21,548 bases of DNA from a virus: positions 1-21,548 of the IMG/VR virus record IMGVR_UViG_3300025086_000300; one strand, written 5' to 3'. Shown piece after piece: positions 2,460-21,193 of this stretch. Position numbers and translations under genes: made by a program. Position 1 is the first letter of the stretch. Every line of letters starts with the position of its first letter. The notes beneath the pieces are model-generated. The model made no database searches. It was given only the letters and a program-made list of their open reading frames with translations, and was not told the DNA's origin.

Positions 2460-3974
2460 ATGATGAACAGAGAGGAAGCGACTAACTGGATTAGGAGTCA
2501 GTTTTTTAAGGAAGCTACTGGCACAATAAACGAAAGTCGTGATTTAGTTCGTACCGCCGTTGGTCAGGGCTTTATGTATGGGTTTGGAGATGAGGCAGAG
2601 GCTTATGCTAGGTCTGTTTTAGGAGATAAAACTTATGAAGAAAATATAGACCAAATTCGTAAGGAAATCGCTTTTTTTAGAGAGAGAAATCCAAGAACAG
2701 CTATTAGTTCTGAAATTATTGGGTCTCTTCCCACAAGTTACTACGCCGCAGTAAAGTTAGGAAAATATGGAATTAAATCACCAGCGCTTATTGCTGGTAT
2801 TGAAGGATTTGTTTATGGAGCTGGTACTGGTGAAGATGCTGGAGATAGAGTAAGTAACGCATTTTTAGGTACATTGTTATCTAGCGGCATCACAAAGTTT
2901 TTTGGAGTTTTATCCAGAACTCCAGACGCTAAAAAATTAATGGACGAAGGTATCGACCTAACTATTGGTCAACAGCTTGGTGGCGCGACCAAAAAACTTG
3001 AGGACATTTCTGCTGGTTTGCCATTTTCTGGGCAAGCTGTAATTAATCAACAATCAAGGGGTTTAGAACAATTTAATAAACTTATGCTTAATAAAGCTCT
3101 ACAGCCAATTTCTCGTAGAGTTGATGATAGTGCGAGTATGTTTGATGCTCACGCAGAGGCGCAGAAATATATAAATAATGCTTATGAAGCCGCAGTTCCA
3201 AACCTTTCTATTGATGATGCCCCAAGACTTATAGCAGACATTGATGAGTTAGTTGATGATTTTGCCTTGCCAGAGAATATACATAAGCAAGTTCAGAAAT
3301 ATGTTAAGCAGATAATAAAAAGTAGGGTCACCTCAGGCGGTACTCTCTCAGGAGAATCTATTAAAAAGATCGAGGCTGATCTTGGTGCAATATCAAGGAG
3401 TTTGCTTGGTGGGAAAGTTTCAACTCAAAGGGAAGTAGGAAACGCACTTTTTGAAGTACAGACGCAATTAAGAAATGAGTTAATGGCTCAAAATCCAAAT
3501 AAATCAAAACTTCTTCAGGACGCTAATAGAGCGTTTAAAAATCTATTACCAGTTACTAAGGCTATAAACAGTGGCCTCTTAAACGAAGGAAATTTTACGG
3601 CTGGGCAACTTCTTAATGCTATTAAATCTACTGATAGCTCAGTGAGGCGAAAAATGACTGCAAGCGGTCAGGGAGAGTTGTTAGATTTAGCCTTAGCCGC
3701 GCAAAACACTATGGGGAAAAATATGCCTACCTCTGGTACAACTGAAAGGCTTTTAGGAGCTGGTGCTTTATTAGGGCAAGGTTATTATGTAGACCCAGCA
3801 ACTATGCTCTTAGCCCCAGCAATTCAGCGTTCCATATATTCTGATTTTGGTCAGAGATTGGGAACAGGTTTGCTAAACACGACTAAAAATCTTGGCTTAA
3901 TTGCGCCATCTATTGGCGCTCAGTCAAGCCCAGAAGAAGGACTTCTCGGAAACACTTTACCTTTTTATCGATGA
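2460..3974 (+). CDS. Putative internal virion / DNA-transfer protein with FGDE motif
   Basis: This 504-residue protein has the N-terminal signature GFGDEAEAYARSVLGDKTYEENIDQIRKEI (about residues 41-70), followed by FRERNPRTAISSEIIGSLP. This combination is common in phage proteins encoded beside head-tail genes and usually annotated as internal virion or DNA-transfer proteins. Small-residue hydrophobic stretches follow (about 93-140, and near 425-445), with long amphipathic helices in the middle. Two consecutive ATGs (2460 and 2463) are possible starts; a GGAG lies about ten bases upstream. It is the last of three ejection-type genes, and the tail-fibre genes begin right after it. Confidence 0.55.
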   Translation: MMNREEATNWIRSQFFKEATGTINESRDLVRTAVGQGFMYGFGDEAEAYARSVLGDKTYEENIDQIRKEIAFFRERNPRTAISSEIIGSLPTSYYAAVKLGKYGIKSPALIAGIEGFVYGAGTGEDAGDRVSNAFLGTLLSSGITKFFGVLSRTPDAKKLMDEGIDLTIGQQLGGATKKLEDISAGLPFSGQAVINQQSRGLEQFNKLMLNKALQPISRRVDDSASMFDAHAEAQKYINNAYEAAVPNLSIDDAPRLIADIDELVDDFALPENIHKQVQKYVKQIIKSRVTSGGTLSGESIKKIEADLGAISRSLLGGKVSTQREVGNALFEVQTQLRNELMAQNPNKSKLLQDANRAFKNLLPVTKAINSGLLNEGNFTAGQLLNAIKSTDSSVRRKMTASGQGELLDLALAAQNTMGKNMPTSGTTERLLGAGALLGQGYYVDPATMLLAPAIQRSIYSDFGQRLGTGLLNTTKNLGLIAPSIGAQSSPEEGLLGNTLPFYR

Positions 3975-3982
3975 GGGAATAA

Positions 3983-5686
3983 ATGACAAAAGCAAACGTA
4001 ACTCAATACAGCTCAACGGCTGGCTCTAATACTGACATAAATGACATTGATATTGGTGAGGGATGTAGCCCAGCCACCATTAATAATGCAATTAGGGAAT
4101 TGATGAGCCACCTTAAAAATGTGGATACTGGTGCTACCACCCTCACCTCTCCAGCTTCAACAACTCAGACAATTACAACTCTGAAAACTGCGACTGTTCA
4201 ATATACGGACGGAGATGCCGCATTTACGATTAGTGATGGAGGGGCGGTCACTATTCCGAATCTTGTCGCAACTACAGCAGATGTAAATGGCGGCTCTATT
4301 GATGGAGCAACTTTAGGTACGAACTCTGCAATAACTCAGGCGGTAATTGATAACGTCAATATTAATGGCGCAACTATTGGTCATACCTCAGACACAGACC
4401 TGATGACATTGGCAAGCGGTTTGCTCACTGTTGCTGGCGAAGTTTCAATGACAACTTTGGATCTCGGCGGCACAAATGTGACTGCTACTGCTTCAGAGCT
4501 TAACATTATGGATGGCGTTACCGCGTCAACTTCCGAGCTTAATATTATGGATGGGGTAACGGCTACTGCTTCAGAACTTAACATCATGGATGGTGTGACA
4601 GCGACAACTGCTGAATTGAACATTTTAGATGGGGTCACTTCCACTGCTTCCGAGTTAAACATTTTAGACGGAGTAACCTCTACTGCCGCAGAGCTTAACA
4701 TTTTAGATGGAGTAACGGCTACTGCTTCCGAGTTGAACATTATGGATGGGGTTACCTCCTCAACTGCTGAATTAAACATTCTAGATGGGGTTACTTCTAC
4801 TGCTTCAGAACTAAACATTCTAGATGGGGTTACATCTACTGCCGCAGAGCTTAATATCTTAGATGGGGTGACTTCCACTACGGCTGAATTGAATAAGCTG
4901 GATGGCGTTCTTTCAACTACCACAGAATTAAATATTACGGATGGTGATACTTCTGTTGGCACAACGGCTGTGGCTGGTGGTGATGGAATAGTCACAAATG
5001 ACAATGGAACAATGCGGCATACAAGTGTTGATACGTTTGATACCTATTTAGCTGGTACGTCCAAAACGCTTACAAATAAAACACTGACATCTCCAGTATT
5101 GAACACAGGGGTCTCAGGTTCAGCCATACTTGATGAAGATAATATGGCTTCAGATAGTGCAACGAAATTAGCGACCCAACAATCAATTAAGGCTTATGTT
5201 GATGCCAGTAGTGCTGGAAATTTAAGTACAGGAATTTCTTCAGGTAATGTTCCAGTATTTACAAGCGGTGTAGCCGATGATGATTTTCTTAAAATTTCTG
5301 GTACGTCCGTTGAGGGGCGTAGCTCATCCGAAGTATTATCGGACATTGGTGGTCAGGCAAGTCTAACCTTTGGAATTAGCAATACTAATGCAGTTAAAAT
5401 AGATAGTGCCAGTGCTGCATCAGGAGAATACGCAAGGCTAACATCTAGCGGAATAGAGAGCAGAAGTACAGCCGAAGTATTAAGCGATATTGGAGGCCAA
5501 GCCTCTTTAACTTTTGGAATAAGTAACACCAATGCAGTGAAGGTTGACAGTGCAAGCGCGGCATCAGGAGAATATGCCAGATTTACTTCAAGTGGACTAG
5601 AAAGCAGAAATACCGCTGAACTAGCTAGTGATATTGGCGCGGCAACAACCGATGAGGCTACGGCTTTAGCACTCGCCCTTTCGTAA
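3983..5686 (+). CDS. Tail fibre protein with SELNILDGVT repeats
   Basis: This 567-residue fibre protein has three parts. The N-terminus (about 1-95) contains EGCSPATINNAIRELMSHLKN, a segment found in virion-attached ends of phage fibres. The middle has twelve contiguous 13-residue repeats (residues 168-323) with consensus STASELNILDGVT, which probably form a repetitive trimeric shaft. The C-terminal part holds two copies of a 48-residue repeat beginning LSDIGGQASLTFGISNTNAVK (from about residue 452), followed by a partial third SDIG. No S74 or other chaperone domain is seen at the end. A good GGGA ribosome-binding site precedes the ATG. Receptor binding may be carried by separate proteins encoded downstream. 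Confidence 0.85.
   Translation: MTKANVTQYSSTAGSNTDINDIDIGEGCSPATINNAIRELMSHLKNVDTGATTLTSPASTTQTITTLKTATVQYTDGDAAFTISDGGAVTIPNLVATTADVNGGSIDGATLGTNSAITQAVIDNVNINGATIGHTSDTDLMTLASGLLTVAGEVSMTTLDLGGTNVTATASELNIMDGVTASTSELNIMDGVTATASELNIMDGVTATTAELNILDGVTSTASELNILDGVTSTAAELNILDGVTATASELNIMDGVTSSTAELNILDGVTSTASELNILDGVTSTAAELNILDGVTSTTAELNKLDGVLSTTTELNITDGDTSVGTTAVAGGDGIVTNDNGTMRHTSVDTFDTYLAGTSKTLTNKTLTSPVLNTGVSGSAILDEDNMASDSATKLATQQSIKAYVDASSAGNLSTGISSGNVPVFTSGVADDDFLKISGTSVEGRSSSEVLSDIGGQASLTFGISNTNAVKIDSASAASGEYARLTSSGIESRSTAEVLSDIGGQASLTFGISNTNAVKVDSASAASGEYARFTSSGLESRNTAELASDIGAATTDEATALALALS
4484..4951 (+). repeat. Twelve 39-bp coding repeats in the fibre shaft
   Basis: Twelve in-frame, contiguous units of 39 bp encode 13 residues each. 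The invariant core is ELN followed by DG, with SELNIMDGVT and AELNILDGVT as the common forms. The last two units (ELNKLDGVL, ELNITDGDT) are the most divergent and close the array. The DNA copies differ mainly at third codon positions while the protein unit is kept. Confidence 0.95.
5336..5608 (+). repeat. Two 144-bp coding repeats in the fibre C-terminal part
   Basis: A 48-residue unit starting LSDIGGQASLTFGISN occurs at 5336 and again exactly 144 bp later at 5480, with a partial third SDIG near 5627. The second unit matches the first through SSG.ESR.TAE. The protein copies are nearly identical but the DNA copies differ at many synonymous sites. Confidence 0.9.
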
Positions 5687-12107: not shown

Positions 12108-12314
12108 GCGTATTCCCCTACTCTTTCCAGCCACTATATCTATTAGTTTCTGGTCTTTCAACTTGGATAATATCTTACCCATGTTGCCTTCACTTGTATT
12201 GCCAAGATGCCGAGCCAACTCACTATGCGTTGGCGCTAGACTATTCTCCTGAATATAGCCTTTAATAAAGTCATAGGCTTTTTTCGTCTGAGGGCTATCG
12301 AATACAATACTCAT
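12096..12314 (-). CDS. Small LexA-type winged-helix regulator
   Basis: This 72-residue protein consists almost only of a winged helix like the N-terminal domain of LexA: QTKKAYDFIKGYIQENSLAPTHSELARHLG (recognition region about residues 25-40), GNMGKILSKLKDQKLI and IVAGKSRGIRLL as the wing. There is no C-terminal Ser-Lys autoprotease domain, so it cannot be controlled by RecA-style self-cleavage. It is the last gene of the leftward block, with an ATGA overlap with the YqaJ-type exonuclease gene, and it converges on the endolysin gene with a 12-bp overlap. It probably binds phage or host SOS-like operators. Confidence 0.75.
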   Translation of the reverse strand: MSIVFDSPQTKKAYDFIKGYIQENSLAPTHSELARHLGNTSEGNMGKILSKLKDQKLIDIVAGKSRGIRLLN

Positions 12315-13303
12315 TTTCTTATAATGCTCAGAGAACTCTGACGCACCTTTCTTGCTGGTTTAGCTTGAACGACCTTTTCAGGTTGCGCCTTATAATTTCT
12401 CGTAGGCCAAGAAATATCTACAAACCTTTCCCCATCCTCATCATCAAGAAATCCTCTGGTATGATTGCCGAGCTTGTCCATAATCTTTGGCTCAAGCTCT
12501 TCCTCAATCCGAGACTTTAGAGTTTTGATTGTGTCCTTTGCATCCACCAGCTCAATCAAAGTTTCAGATAATTCGCTGAGGTTTATTGAAGGTAAATCAT
12601 CCTCCCCATTCGCATAAGTTTTTGCGCCATCAGAGCTGGTTCTAACAGGATACCAATCGATGTTATTGACCCTCTCATAAAACTCAAGTGCGAGATCAAT
12701 CAACTTTTGCATCATCTCCTCATCTCTCTTATAGACATAAACGTAATGTGAATAGCCCTGATAGAGAACTGACACAGCCCCCCATTTTGCCCCATGACAG
12801 AGCATTTGCATTTGTAGTTGCCAAACACCCATGTACTCTTCAGGTAACTCTCTTGGAGGTATTCTAGTGTTCTTAGCCTCAATCACTCCATCACCTTCAA
12901 GAACGATTTCAGATTGACCTTTAGGAAATATGATCTGCATTTCCTCCGAAGGCTTAATCACCGAACTTCCCTCATTGAAAACGATGCTATCTAAAGACAC
13001 TTCAAACAAATCTTTATACTTGTAGACCTCTCTAACCTCATCTTCATGCACCAGCTCTTTGCCGATAGATTTAGAGATTTTATCTACCGCCCTCTTTATA
13101 ATTATTGGCTCAACATCATGTGCAATTTGCAAAAATTCACCCTCAGGTTGTGGCGGCTCAGTAGCTCCTTCAACTCCCTGATGGAATAGAATGTAATTCA
13201 TCAAATCATTTAGAGATTCAAACCGATTTACACCAGCTAAGGTTGCGGCCTTTGATCCAGTAATTAGGGTGTTGCTTGTCAACTTTCCAAAATCTTTTCC
13301 CAT
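12311..13303 (-). CDS. YqaJ-type PD-(D/E)XK exonuclease
   Basis: This 330-residue protein has the YqaJ viral-recombinase pattern: LITGSKAATLAGVNRFESLNDL (about residues 13-34), a Glu in HDVEPIII (Glu65), Asp105 in EVSLDSIVF, then Glu142-x-Lys144 in GDGVIEAKNT, and the downstream Gln helix VWQLQMQMLCHG (160-171). These are the metal-binding residues of a 5'-3' exonuclease of the lambda-exo fold, used in phage recombination and repair. The C-terminal 80 residues are a charged extension. No single-strand annealing partner (RecT, Erf or Redbeta type) is visible in the window. It lies in a tight leftward operon. Confidence 0.8.
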   Translation of the reverse strand: MGKDFGKLTSNTLITGSKAATLAGVNRFESLNDLMNYILFHQGVEGATEPPQPEGEFLQIAHDVEPIIIKRAVDKISKSIGKELVHEDEVREVYKYKDLFEVSLDSIVFNEGSSVIKPSEEMQIIFPKGQSEIVLEGDGVIEAKNTRIPPRELPEEYMGVWQLQMQMLCHGAKWGAVSVLYQGYSHYVYVYKRDEEMMQKLIDLALEFYERVNNIDWYPVRTSSDGAKTYANGEDDLPSINLSELSETLIELVDAKDTIKTLKSRIEEELEPKIMDKLGNHTRGFLDDEDGERFVDISWPTRNYKAQPEKVVQAKPARKVRQSSLSIIRK

Positions 13304-13307
13304 GATT

Positions 13308-13553
13308 TTACCCCCAAATCGCAGTGGTAAAAACGAGGAACAAAATGCCGAGTCCTACCATCACTGGTAAGAACAAAATCTCTGACACAATCTCTAGTTT
13401 TTGAAGTATTCTAGTCAGTCTGATCTGACTGACTTGGTTAGTTAGGTGGGTTAGGTAGGGTACTGATGTCACATTATATTTATTATGCGATTCAGATTTG
13501 ATTTTAGAATCGCCACCTTTCTTTAATATGTTATCGTAACTTTTTGAAAACAT
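13308..13553 (-). CDS. Small membrane protein of unknown function
   Basis: This 81-residue protein has a basic, polar N-terminal half (SYDNILKKGGDSKIKSES) and one C-terminal TM helix (about residues 55-79, IVSEILFLPVMVGLGILFLVFTTAIW). It is preceded by GAAAGAGAG as a ribosome-binding site and ends five bases before the YqaJ exonuclease start. I do not recognise the family. A small early membrane protein could be involved in host takeover or superinfection exclusion, but this is only positional guesswork. Confidence 0.6.
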   Translation of the reverse strand: MFSKSYDNILKKGGDSKIKSESHNKYNVTSVPYLTHLTNQVSQIRLTRILQKLEIVSEILFLPVMVGLGILFLVFTTAIWG

Positions 13554-13651: not shown

Positions 13652-14041
13652 TTATTTTGCCCCTCTGTAGTCAAAACTCGGATTCTTAGGCATTAATCTT
13701 GGCCTATCTCCATCCTCTTTTAAACTGGTATGGCAATAATAAATTTCACTCCTCATTGCGCCGATCTTATGTACGGAAGATGCGCCAGAAGATTTAATCT
13801 GTTTCAAGGCTTCTACCAGATGTCCAAATCTCAGAATAGCCGCGTCTAAATTACGAGCTTCAATCGATGGCACAGTAATTCTCATAGTAGATGTGCCACC
13901 ACCTCTTCGCGCATAATCTTGCTGATTCTGAAATTTCTTTTTCTGATAATCCAAACTTGAACGGCGCTCATAAAATGGCTTGTTTAAATTCCAAGCCAGC
14001 TCGTCCATTCTATTTAGTTTTACCTTGCTTTTTTCTTCCAT
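13652..14041 (-). CDS. Hypothetical phage protein
   Basis: This 129-residue basic protein has no family I recognise. Residues 1-50 are charged and rich in Lys, Arg, Asn and Gln (LDYQKKKFQNQQDYARRGGG). The remainder looks like a small alpha/beta domain with TMRITVPSIEARNLDAAILRFGHLVEAL (about 52-79), then KSSGASSVHKIGAMRSEIYYCHTSL. An AAGGAAAG ribosome-binding site lies just before the ATG. It has its own 126-bp upstream gap containing the 14-bp repeat array, so it may be controlled separately from the genes upstream. Confidence 0.65.
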   Translation of the reverse strand: MEEKSKVKLNRMDELAWNLNKPFYERRSSLDYQKKKFQNQQDYARRGGGTSTMRITVPSIEARNLDAAILRFGHLVEALKQIKSSGASSVHKIGAMRSEIYYCHTSLKEDGDRPRLMPKNPSFDYRGAK

Positions 14042-14167
14042 TATCTTTCCTTACCCATTCCTTTTATCTTCTTTTTAAATGCCTGACCACTATAAGCAGT
14101 TTTATTAAAATGATTTACATAAAATGATTTACATAAAATGATTTACATAAAATGATTTTAAATGCTT
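14042..14167 (-). promoter_or_regulatory. Upstream control region of the leftward gene 14041-13652
   Basis: This 126-bp gap precedes the leftward gene starting at 14041. Read leftward it contains the tandem repeat array, then CTTATAGT (about 14089-14096), which could act as a -10 box, and an AAGGAAAG ribosome-binding site. No matching -35 box stands out. The combination of repeats and a possible -10 suggests a regulated promoter, but an iteron-like origin is also possible. Confidence 0.35.
14107..14158. repeat. 14-bp AT-rich tandem repeats (about 3.7 copies)
   Basis: The unit AAAATGATTTACAT is repeated with an exact 14-bp period from 14107, with the fourth copy incomplete at its 3' end. Each unit holds AAATGATTT, a small dyad of AAAT/ATTT around a central G. 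Copies are identical across the shared part, so the array is recent or under strong selection. Confidence 0.95.
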
Positions 14168-14821
14168 TTAAGAATTACCCTTATTTTTGGCATTTTCTTC
14201 TGCCGTATTTAACTGATCTGCAAACGCTTCCGACTTTTTAGGGTTTGCCTTTAACGCGAGCCACCATTTATGAAAGGAGTTTGTGTCATAATCGTTTAAC
14301 ACCGAGTTCCATCCTTCAGCTCGATAAGGAATATATTTTTTTAGGTAGTCGATTGCAATCCATTCCACTGCCGCAATAGCGGTTTTTTCTGATGCGTCAC
14401 CTTTGTTGTATACATAGATATAACCCTCTGCCTCGGCCTCGTTTACGATCTTAGTGACTGTTGGGTAGGTTAAGGCGAGCTTAGACACTATATAGCTGAT
14501 TGCGTAAGATGTGCCAGAAAGTGATCCAATGATTGCGTAATTGAATATCCCTCGATAGTTTGGGCTTTGCATCCAGAATTTTTGGGCTTTAGAGCTATTC
14601 ATATCCCACTTTATTTGTGCAGATCTTTCCTGAATATAAATGTCGTCTGTGACAAGTGCTTTCCCCATATTTAAAAAACGCTGGTCAATGCCGTTTAGAA
14701 AATTTACTTTGTGACTTCCAAAATAAGGAGCTTCAGTTATATATTCATCTTTTGGCTCTTGGTTTATTTTCTTTTTCCCAACCAAATTTGTCATGGGGTA
14801 TATATTCTTATCTTTTGTCAT
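14168..14821 (-). CDS. Winged-helix (MarR-like) DNA-binding protein
   Basis: This 217-residue protein has a central segment GTSYAISYIVSKLALTYPTVTKIVNEAEAEGYIYVYNKGD (about residues 103-142), which fits a winged helix: helix, recognition helix TYPTVTKIVNEAEAEGYI, and wing. The 'vSklAltypTVtkIVneaeaeGyI' wording resembles MarR-type regulators. The N-terminal 95 residues are polar and may unfold or dimerise, and the C-terminus ends in a charged tail. It overlaps the recombinase-like gene by 14 bp and has a GGGAG site. Regulatory function is inferred. Confidence 0.6.
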   Translation of the reverse strand: MTKDKNIYPMTNLVGKKKINQEPKDEYITEAPYFGSHKVNFLNGIDQRFLNMGKALVTDDIYIQERSAQIKWDMNSSKAQKFWMQSPNYRGIFNYAIIGSLSGTSYAISYIVSKLALTYPTVTKIVNEAEAEGYIYVYNKGDASEKTAIAAVEWIAIDYLKKYIPYRAEGWNSVLNDYDTNSFHKWWLALKANPKKSEAFADQLNTAEENAKNKGNS

Positions 14822-15488
14822 TTGACCATCTCCCTTTTAAATTTCGGACGCTTGATAACGCCCACTTTGTTTTTCCTGATCGCGTCAGGATATTATTATC
14901 TTCAAGCCACTTAGCGATTTCTTCCAATGTCTTATCCTCAAAGTCAGGTAATCCCTCTTTAACAAGACAAAACACAGATTTACTGTAGTCTAGGTCAGGC
15001 TTGGCCTTCATTTTTCCCCCTAGAGCCGCCCTTTCTCGATAGAACGACTTAGGACGACCTAAAACCTTTTCGCTCTTTCTCATGCCGTTTTTGGTCTTCT
15101 CAGAGTGTCCTTCATATCTGAGGACAACTTGCTCCATTAAAATCTTCAATAATCGTCTGCGGCGGTTAGGTCGGTCTCCCATATCCATATCGATAGCAAT
15201 GAGATCAACTTTACCAGCTACAAGTGGATTGAGGACTGCCATCTTCTGCATGAACTTGTTGATCTTGGGAGTAACCATTCCGATCCCATGCTCCTTACAA
15301 ATTGATATTGCGTCCTTCAGTTCGAGCTGCCGCATATCTGCAATCGGACTTTTCTCCCTAGACACAAACTCATCCAAAATCTCAAATTGGTTGATGTCAC
15401 AGAAAGTCTGAACCATTTCTCGCTCCCCATCCAAGACATCATCGCCCTCGCCTTTTCGTAAGCGGTAGAAGGCTACTTTATCTTCCAT
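14808..15488 (-). CDS. Serine-recombinase-like protein lacking catalytic residues
   Basis: This 226-residue protein follows the resolvase/invertase layout: VAFYRLR (residues 5-11) in place of YxRVS, MVQTFCDINQFEILDEFVS (25-43), DMRQLELKDAI (Arg53 kept), IGMVTPKINKFMQK (69-82) in place of KLDRLSR, KVDLIAIDM, a long helix with RYEGHSEKTKNGMRKSEKVLGRP, and a C-terminal LEEIAKWLEDNNILTRSGKTKWALSSVRNLKGRW helix-turn-helix. The catalytic Ser is replaced by Arg11, and the Asp-Arg...Arg triad is Asn77, Lys78 and Gln81. It should not cut DNA by the known mechanism and may work as a DNA-binding protein. Start overlaps the upstream stop (TGATG), after GGGAG. Confidence 0.7.
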   Translation of the reverse strand: MEDKVAFYRLRKGEGDDVLDGEREMVQTFCDINQFEILDEFVSREKSPIADMRQLELKDAISICKEHGIGMVTPKINKFMQKMAVLNPLVAGKVDLIAIDMDMGDRPNRRRRLLKILMEQVVLRYEGHSEKTKNGMRKSEKVLGRPKSFYRERAALGGKMKAKPDLDYSKSVFCLVKEGLPDFEDKTLEEIAKWLEDNNILTRSGKTKWALSSVRNLKGRWSNDKR

Positions 15489-16085: not shown

Positions 16086-16805
16086 TTACCTTAATTCCAC
16101 ATAATCTAAATCTAATTCATTAATTGCTAAGTCATGCTCAAACAAATCTAGGCAGTCATCACACTTACAACCCAATGGTCTAAGCGGCTCTCTGTGATCG
16201 TTGGCATCCTTGCCAAAAAGTTCTGCTATGTGAACATCAAGCAGATGATCATTAATAAAGTTTTGACGCACTTTTAGGTCATTGAAATACTTATTTCTAA
16301 GTACCCTATAGATGGCTCTAAAGCCCTCACCATGAGCTTTAAGCATATGCTTCCATCTCTTCCTATCGGCATACCATAAGCTACACTGAATAAAGTGTGC
16401 AAGTTCATGTAAGACCTGAAGCAGTACAGTTGTTTGAACATCCCCAGCATCTACATAAAAGCCACCGATCTCAGGGTCTTTGTCAAAGCTATTATATTCT
16501 TTGTACCAAACTTTTGGCTTGCCCTCAGCAATGGCATTAATAACATTACAGGATTGCCAGTATTGTAAATTGATTATTATTTTTTTATGATTAGCCCTAC
16601 TACAGTTATGACCATTGCCATAATCAACATTTTTGACATCTAAAATATCTAATGCTTTTTGCTTGGTGGCTTTTGGCAAAGAATAAACAGTTCCATCAAG
16701 TTCAGATAAACATTGAGTGATGACAGATTTTGCAAATGCAACTTGATCGTCAACATTCCACTCGTAAGATTTTTTGAGGAGAAATTTCTTAGTAAGTTTA
16801 GCCAT
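16086..16805 (-). CDS. SprT-like zinc metalloprotease
   Basis: This 239-residue protein has the motif VLHELAHFIQ (His133, Glu134, His137), followed 20 residues later by HGEGFRAIYRVLR (His158). The HExxH plus downstream 'HG..F....r.lr' is the signature of SprT-like metallopeptidases, a family that includes the eukaryotic DNA-protein-crosslink protease SPRTN. Upstream, KIIINLQYWQ is the strand preceding the active-site helix. A Cys cluster near the end (CKCDDC, 213-218) may bind another metal. A phage role could be removing crosslinked proteins from DNA or degrading host proteins, but this is inference. The leader resembles those of neighbouring genes. Confidence 0.75.
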   Translation of the reverse strand: MAKLTKKFLLKKSYEWNVDDQVAFAKSVITQCLSELDGTVYSLPKATKQKALDILDVKNVDYGNGHNCSRANHKKIIINLQYWQSCNVINAIAEGKPKVWYKEYNSFDKDPEIGGFYVDAGDVQTTVLLQVLHELAHFIQCSLWYADRKRWKHMLKAHGEGFRAIYRVLRNKYFNDLKVRQNFINDHLLDVHIAELFGKDANDHREPLRPLGCKCDDCLDLFEHDLAINELDLDYVELR

Positions 16806-19306: not shown

Positions 19307-19318
19307 ATGTGGGGCAGA

Positions 19319-21193
19319 ATGTACGAAATTAAAGACATAGCATTAGAGTTATTAGGAGAGCCAAATAAACGGCTCAGTAATAATAACGAACTGCGATTTG
19401 GTAGTTATGGCTCAATGTCAATTGATCTCGATAAGAATACATTTTTCGATCATGAGGCAAATGAGGGAGGCGGCGTTGTAGACCTCCTAAAGAGATTTGA
19501 TAAAGACCCAAAAGATTATTTACCTCCTATGGAGAAAAAAGGCATAGGGAAGCTGGTCGCTCGGTATCCCTACCTGAATGAAAATGGCGAAGAGATTTAT
19601 GAAGTCTGCCGATTTGAGCCAAAAACATTTAGACCGAGACACAAGAATGGTAATGGGTACATTTATGGGTTGAGTGGCATCACTCCCCTTCCCTACAGAT
19701 TACAAGATATAATTAAAAACCCCAGCGAACCAATTTGCATTGTGGAAGGGGAAAAAGACGCAGACTTATTAGCAAGTCATGGGTTGGTCGCCACTTGCAA
19801 TAGTGGTGGAGCTGGCAACTGGAATAAAGCGCTTAATGAATATTTCAGAAAGCGTAATGTTATTATTATACCTGATAATGATGCGGCTGGGTCTAAACAC
19901 GCCGAAATAGTAATAGGAAATCTTCAGGGGGTAGCCTCAGCTATAAAGCTGGTGAAGTTGCCAGTAGACGAAAAAGAAGATGTCGCCGACTTTATCTCCA
20001 AGAACGATATTGGCGACCTTAAGGAAATAATGAAAAGGACAGGCATCCTAAAGACTAAGGTTACTCCTGTATCTCTCTTCTCTAGCTGGGAAGTTGTCAA
20101 TCCTCTGAGCATCGAGCCAAGAGACTTTATATATAGTAACCACTACATCCGAAAATTTGCGTCTACAACTGTCAGTCAGGGCGGTGTTGGTAAATCCACA
20201 CTGGTACTCACAGAATGTATAGCCATGTGTACTGGACGCGACCTTTTAGGTGTAGAGCCAAAGTCCACAAGTAAAGTCGTATATTTTAATGCCGAAGACC
20301 CAAAAGAAGAAATAGAACGCCGCGTATTATCTGTATGCTCCCATTTCCAAATCCCTCAGGAGGAGCTGGTGGGTCAGCTCTTTATCGCCTCAGGTAGAGA
20401 TGAGGATATTGTTTTAGCTGAAGGGAATGACGGAATTATTAATGAGGCGGCATTTGAAAAGATAGAGCAGTTTTGTCTCGATCACAGCATAGATGTTTTC
20501 GCCGCCGATCCACTGGCAAATATGACCAGTAGCCCAGAGACTAATGAAGTCTTTAAGATGTTAGGAAAGCGCATTTCTCAGCTTGCTGACAAGTGTAATT
20601 GTTCAGTCGAAGTTGTACATCACACGAGAAAATTAAATGGGCGTGTCGCTGAGGTGGAAGATGCAAGAGGTGGCTCAAGTCTCGTAGCTTCAGTGAGAGC
20701 CGCTAGAAGTCTTAATGCCATGTCTCAGGATGAGGCACTAAAGGCTGGGCTGGACACTCACATTAATCATTTCAGGATTGAGAGTGGAGGTAAGAATAAC
20801 CTCTCGAAGCCTCTTGAAAAGGCTATGTGGTTTGAAAAGGAAGCCATACAGCTCGATAATGGAGATTGGGTTGCAGTCATTAAGCAGTGGGAATTTCCAG
20901 ACGCTTTCAGTGGAATTACAAAGACTGACACCAGAAAAGTACAGTTAGCAGTGGACGATACAGACACGCCGTACAAGTACCATCACGCCAGCTCTAATTG
21001 GGTTGGGAAAGTTGTGGGCGAAGTCTTGGGTCTCAATGCCAATGACAAGGGCGACAAGTCTCGGATCAATACAATAATCAAGACATGGGTCTCAACAGAT
21101 GTGCTGACTGTCGATGAGGAACACGATGGGAGAAATGGGCGTGTCGTCAAGGTCGTAAGAGCTGGCTCAAATAATGTGATGGTGGAGAAATGA
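19319..21193 (+). CDS. TOPRIM primase / RepA-type helicase
   Basis: This 624-residue protein has an N-terminal primase-like part (FGSYGSMSIDLDKNTFFDHEANEGGGVVDLL) without the zinc-binding cysteines usual in such domains. A TOPRIM domain follows: IVEGEKDA (Glu143) and IPDNDAAGS (Asp-Asn-Asp 186-188). A RecA-like helicase follows with Walker A QGGVGKST (about 287-294), VVYFNAEDPKEE and Walker B DVFAADPLANM. This is the RepA-type hexameric helicase layout. It would prime and unwind phage DNA. I start at ATG 19319, which has GGGG upstream; the earlier ATG at 19307 lies right on the terminator T-run. It overlaps the next gene by ATGA. Confidence 0.85.
   Translation: MYEIKDIALELLGEPNKRLSNNNELRFGSYGSMSIDLDKNTFFDHEANEGGGVVDLLKRFDKDPKDYLPPMEKKGIGKLVARYPYLNENGEEIYEVCRFEPKTFRPRHKNGNGYIYGLSGITPLPYRLQDIIKNPSEPICIVEGEKDADLLASHGLVATCNSGGAGNWNKALNEYFRKRNVIIIPDNDAAGSKHAEIVIGNLQGVASAIKLVKLPVDEKEDVADFISKNDIGDLKEIMKRTGILKTKVTPVSLFSSWEVVNPLSIEPRDFIYSNHYIRKFASTTVSQGGVGKSTLVLTECIAMCTGRDLLGVEPKSTSKVVYFNAEDPKEEIERRVLSVCSHFQIPQEELVGQLFIASGRDEDIVLAEGNDGIINEAAFEKIEQFCLDHSIDVFAADPLANMTSSPETNEVFKMLGKRISQLADKCNCSVEVVHHTRKLNGRVAEVEDARGGSSLVASVRAARSLNAMSQDEALKAGLDTHINHFRIESGGKNNLSKPLEKAMWFEKEAIQLDNGDWVAVIKQWEFPDAFSGITKTDTRKVQLAVDDTDTPYKYHHASSNWVGKVVGEVLGLNANDKGDKSRINTIIKTWVSTDVLTVDEEHDGRNGRVVKVVRAGSNNVMVEK

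Follow-up and report, generated by a model that had tools for sequence, protein, structure and literature searches.

A small serine recombinase homolog with predicted loss of catalysis in a tailed-phage fragment, and evidence for repeated losses among its relatives

The window, a 21,548-base IMG/VR virus record analysed over its whole length, is a fragment of a tailed phage with tail and lysis genes at the left and a replication module at the right. The gene under study is an intact open reading frame of 226 codons with zero internal stops (Table 1). The operon around it is tight: at 15488, the stop of the upstream gene and the start of this one overlap, and its 3' end overlaps the winged-helix/HTH-like gene by 14 nt. 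Elsewhere in the window, 39-bp tandem repeats (ELNILDGVT-type) at 4481-4936, within a 567-aa gene, are typical of phage tail fibre repeats, and a 239-aa protein with a HELAH motif and no Pfam match (16086-16805) is perhaps a SprT-like zinc metalloprotease.

Table 1. Features of the window that bear on the recombinase homolog and its operon
Feature	Position	Strand	Evidence or remark
Small serine recombinase homolog, predicted catalytically dead, 226 aa	14808..15488	-	HMM of active relatives only, hhalign, AlphaFold, Foldseek, table of catalytic residues
Residues 9-13 (RLRKG), where YxRVST is expected	15450..15464	-	R8 present as Arg9; V-S-T lost by deletion
Residues 75-81 (KINKFMQ), equivalent to K[LI]DRLxR	15246..15266	-	D67>N77, R68>K78, R71>Q81
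Long E-helix, residues 107-143	15060..15170	-	Retained in the model; sequence drifted, about 23% identity
C-terminal helix-turn-helix, residues 186-221	14826..14933	-	50-53% identical to intact relatives; WALSSVRNL common to L103
Winged-helix/HTH-like gene, 217 aa	14168..14821	-	Homolog of the L092/L101 gene after the recombinase (E=6e-7, 2e-5)
Tandem array, 14-bp TAAAATGATTTACA x3.8, 100% identical	14106..14158	.	Between the winged-helix gene and the 129-aa gene
129-aa gene, no function assigned	13652..14041	-	Syntenic in L265 (42%) and L102
Small putative membrane protein	13308..13553	-	Same operon slot in L102, L103, L265
YqaJ/RecE-like exonuclease	12311..13303	-	phrog_434 E=4e-25; anchor for finding relatives
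LexA-like DNA-binding domain protein, 72 aa	12096..12314	-	PF01726 E=5e-7
Primase/helicase, divergent replication operon	19307..21193	+	Used for synteny

The 226-aa protein is seen weakly by family databases, with Pfam Recombinase at E=0.0096 (below the cutoff) and the phrog_95 integrase at E=0.001, while the Pfam search did not reach PF00239 (Resolvase). A PDB search with its sequence gave no matches, exact peptides found no close homologs in viral contigs, and the phage and plasmid collections returned only distant intact recombinases. An HMM built from intact relatives only nevertheless matches it over nearly its full length (E=2.5e-23), the best of 2000 shuffled versions reaching E=0.24 with the same HMM, and hhalign against eight intact relatives gave a probability of 99.6 (E=4.9e-24). 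The AlphaFold model, based on 35 homologs, has a mean pLDDT of 87.8 and keeps the catalytic-domain fold and the long E-helix, with the elements in resolvase-like order: a catalytic-like domain, the E-helix, a further helix (residues 147-179) and the helix-turn-helix (HTH). All Foldseek matches of this model in the PDB at E<=0.001 are serine recombinases; they include the TP901-1 integrase domain as well as complexes of serine integrases and domains of the resolvase family. The leading named matches in a library of predicted viral structures are serine recombinases too. The resolvase fold, which had been proposed from the letters alone, is thus borne out, both profile-profile comparison and structure prediction having led to serine recombinases.

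The catalytic residues tell a different story from the fold. Among 116 distinct intact homologs, the equivalents of resolvase Y6, R8, S10, R45, D67, R68 and R71 are invariant; the corresponding residues of the window protein are F, R, none (deleted), Q, N, K and Q, respectively, and R8 (as Arg9) is the sole survivor of the six catalytic residues. In profile alignments, Ser10 of the YxRxS motif falls inside a 3-residue deletion (YRVSTkrQG versus YRL---RKGEG), and there is no serine before position 43. The sequence-only reading had recognized the loss of the nucleophile correctly, but its substitute, Arg11, is not strictly equivalent to the missing serine. The same reading had placed Asn77, Lys78 and Gln81 at the Asp67-Arg68-x-x-Arg71 positions, which the homolog alignment confirms, and had regarded Arg53 as a retained catalytic arginine. 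This last assignment is off by one: the invariant R45 (RPxL) aligns with Gln54, so that the catalytic loss is more complete than had been stated. The protein shares the fold order, the E-helix and the C-terminal HTH with the small serine recombinases of PF00239 (Tn3/gamma-delta resolvase, Sin, Hin/Gin), but unlike them it has lost Ser10, Arg45, Asp67, Arg68 and Arg71. To judge by its residues, it originated from these enzymes yet lacks the catalytic features that define them; it is predicted to be unable to cut or rejoin DNA and should not be classed as a recombinase.

Relatives of the locus (L numbers) were found by anchoring on the neighbouring YqaJ/RecE-like exonuclease. From a divergent primase operon, their common layout runs through early genes to a small serine recombinase, frequently followed by a winged-helix gene, and then to a 129-aa-like gene, a gene for a small membrane protein, the exonuclease, a LexA-like gene and, in many cases, a lysin; L102 and L103 are good examples with an intact enzyme. 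At 104 distinct loci, the recombinase is encoded upstream of the exonuclease and in the same orientation, and intact orthologs in this slot match PF00239 (L264, E=3e-29). The window gene is the positional ortholog of this small serine recombinase, which is shared by a large phage group. A tyrosine integrase is encoded between the recombinase and the exonuclease at 8 of these 104 loci; in those phages, integration is unlikely to be the task of the serine recombinase, and we therefore gave up the view that the intact enzyme generally serves as the phage integrase. In two loci whose exonucleases group with that of the window and whose primases are the closest found to its own (L010 and L012), no recombinase match was found in the interval, which indicates that the gene is dispensable there and can be lost.

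The two ends of the window protein have diverged to very different extents. Its HTH is 50-53% identical to those of L092, L093, L103 and L104, with the string WALSSVRN common to L103 and L104, whereas its catalytic half is 25-29% identical to those of the same four proteins. In pairs of intact recombinases with equal HTH identity (n=252-360), the catalytic half never falls below 42% and averages 57%. The E-helix is the dimer interface in resolvases; in the window protein it is no better conserved than the catalytic domain, and the ability to dimerise may have changed as a result. Marks of a pseudogene (stops, frameshifts) are absent from the 226-codon frame. When neutral drift was simulated from the window gene or from L092 to a protein identity of 0.57, 0 of 300 genes remained stop-free, indels not being counted. 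Taken with the intact frame and the contrast between HTH and catalytic half, this makes it most likely that selection acted on the window gene after, or during, the loss of catalysis. The earlier preference for repurposing over decay is favoured by these results, and is further backed by L265, a related phage that keeps a dead ortholog in the same slot.

Besides the window protein, four more fully dead homologs were identified (L265, L035, L142 and L137). A scan by the intact-motif pattern undercounts dead forms, and the exonuclease-anchored scans are free of that bias. Trees built with FastTree suggest at least four separate events of catalytic loss, the window and L265 being counted as one. 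The L265 recombinase (3935-4579, frame intact) groups with the window protein with a support of 0.96, although long branches could inflate this join. The two share seven derived residues in the catalytic half, versus 0-3 in other dead pairs, and the g172-like and 129-aa-like genes of L265 are the best matches of those of the window (52% and 42%).

The dead recombinase of L035 (4722-5411) faces an intact allele at the same slot in L036 (1311-2015). Identity between these two genomes is 99.6% across the 6.2 kb that follow the gene and 91% just ahead of it, and their recombinases are sisters in the tree (support 1.0), the proteins being about half identical; the difference suggests either that alleles were swapped or that divergence was very fast. 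L142 and L137 each carry a dead paralog plus an intact copy. In L142 (4989-6286), the genes of an intact small serine recombinase and of the dead paralog after it overlap, and their C-terminal HTHs are similar, the identity between the two proteins being 0.51 in the HTH and 0.20 in the catalytic half; the model of the dead copy has a pLDDT of 92.9, and its best fold matches are the Sin, gamma-delta and Tn3 resolvases. Scans with the dead proteins of L035 and L142 returned these proteins alone. In L137 (3581-8064), one recombinase-type HTH occurs in the dead recombinase, in the intact recombinase and in a third protein, which has an HNH-like N-terminal half and carries an identical 80-bp stretch of this tail.

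The direct repeats of the window were also compared among the relatives. L102 has an array of three 12-bp units at the place equivalent to the 14-bp array, and in L092 and L101, whose winged-helix proteins are homologous to that of the window, the palindrome GTGAAACGCGTTTCAC or a close form of it occurs on both sides of the winged-helix gene (L092:5715-6288 and L101:1782-2300). Four sites were observed in L092, with 0.09 expected, and this locus has two pairs with 22-bp spacing. In six loci with an intact recombinase but no winged-helix gene, as judged from the following gene (L103, L105, L096, L098, L108 and L006), no comparable array was found beside the recombinase. Since the arrays track the winged-helix gene and not the recombinase, they are more likely operators of the winged-helix protein, and the 14-bp array of the window probably serves the adjacent gene in this way. 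We accordingly dropped the assignment of the 14-bp repeats to the dead recombinase, since arrays in this slot accompany the winged-helix gene that separates recombinase and exonuclease; the suggestion that the protein is an accessory of the nearby repeats is unsupported for the same reason. No crossover palindrome common to the loci was found when the surroundings of the recombinase genes were searched, and many relatives are operon-packed with no room upstream.

For the window gene, the reading that we prefer, and to which we give about an even chance, is that of a pseudo-recombinase retained for DNA binding, as a regulator or as a pairing protein. The earlier description as a DNA-binding protein derived from a recombinase holds for the origin, the lost catalysis and the conserved HTH; its retention as a DNA binder is what we infer from them. 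With its conserved HTH, the dead protein would recognize the former crossover half-sites, perhaps as a dimer through the E-helix, and would act by occupying or pairing these sites; early or lysogeny transcription would be regulated as a result, or DNA sites held together. Such a role is plausible because binding of Tn3 resolvase at res autoregulates tnpR and tnpA (PMC7157771), and because an activated Tn3 resolvase carrying the S10A change remains able to bind and to assemble stable synaptic complexes, at more than 80% yield and with no cleavage (PMC4499144). Both results imply that a dead recombinase can occupy or pair sites.

Other fates of the gene were weighed against this regulator or pairing role. 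A dead protein could act as a dominant-negative inhibitor that, by site occupation or through mixed dimers, blocks intact recombinases encoded by related phages that co-infect the cell or by its own genome. Such inhibition would fit the coexistence of dead and intact copies in L142, where they are adjacent with overlapping frames and similar HTHs, and in L137, as well as the dead and intact alleles held at one slot by the near-identical L035 and L036, and the resemblance of the window HTH to those of intact relatives such as L103. However, no intact copy was found in the window or in an extra ~10 kb of the same phage (contig L083), and the drifted interface residues of the catalytic half argue against mixed tetramers; for the window, we consider inhibition rather unlikely. 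A broader version, which we regard as quite improbable, is that resident serine recombinases of phages are converted time and again into dead DNA-binding antagonists or immunity factors against the intact recombinases of competitors, dead and intact alleles swapping at one locus.

Simple decay, in which the enzyme was dispensable, lost its activity and left the frame as a relic on its way out, would agree with the recombinase-free intervals of L010 and L012 and with the strong drift of the catalytic half in the window. It is unlikely, given a frame free of stops and frameshifts at a divergence where none of the simulated neutral genes survives, the conservation of fold, HTH and tight operon overlaps, and the likewise intact frame of the dead ortholog in L265. 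Finally, the protein might still be a recombinase, by way of a shifted nucleophile or a partner subunit: Arg9 is left, fold and HTH are kept, and pseudoenzymes can have migrated residues. We hold this to be highly improbable, as the N-terminal stretch before residue 43 offers no serine, and Asp67, Arg68, Arg71 and Arg45, each invariant in the intact homologs, have been replaced together.

Regulatory roles taken on by catalytically dead relatives of transposon or phage enzymes are a topic of current interest. TldR, which is nuclease-dead TnpB, resembles the role proposed here in being a mobile-element enzyme kept in phages as a non-catalytic regulator. TldR proteins are RNA-guided transcription factors of phages (PMC13418256). 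They differ from the window protein in their unrelated fold, in being RNA-guided and in having a function shown by experiment, whereas the role of the window protein is a proposal. The nearest precedent by kind is F16 (OPG061) of poxviruses, described as an inactivated serine recombinase: it is predicted to be catalytically inactive (Senkevich 2011, as cited in PMC4304020) and is the sole inactive serine recombinase that we found cited. Like the window protein, F16 is a viral serine recombinase homolog that has lost catalysis, but it belongs to a eukaryotic virus and is nucleolar, whereas the window protein is from a phage, has a conserved HTH and has intact orthologs in sister phages; OPG061 is a weak fold match to our model (E about 0.18). 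The open literature searched, which leaves out most subscription journals, held no report of dead small serine recombinases as phage regulators. Here, in one phage group, the same recombinase gene appears to have lost catalysis several times, and the allelic pair of near-identical phages, together with the dead and intact neighbours in one genome, provides natural pairs for testing a dead recombinase.

A fifth group, consisting of L245, L247, L252, L253, L259 and L260, has lost only Asp67, which is replaced by Ser (KIDR to NISR), and keeps Ser10. Pairs with dS >= 0.17 in this clade have dN/dS values of 0.07-0.20, that is, purifying selection, and the clade may represent an intermediate or an altered enzyme. 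In addition, we observed unannotated serine recombinase remains in the Ti plasmid pTi1D1609 (L089:1266-2288), in two adjacent pieces with a stop or frameshift between them, located between an integrase and repC.
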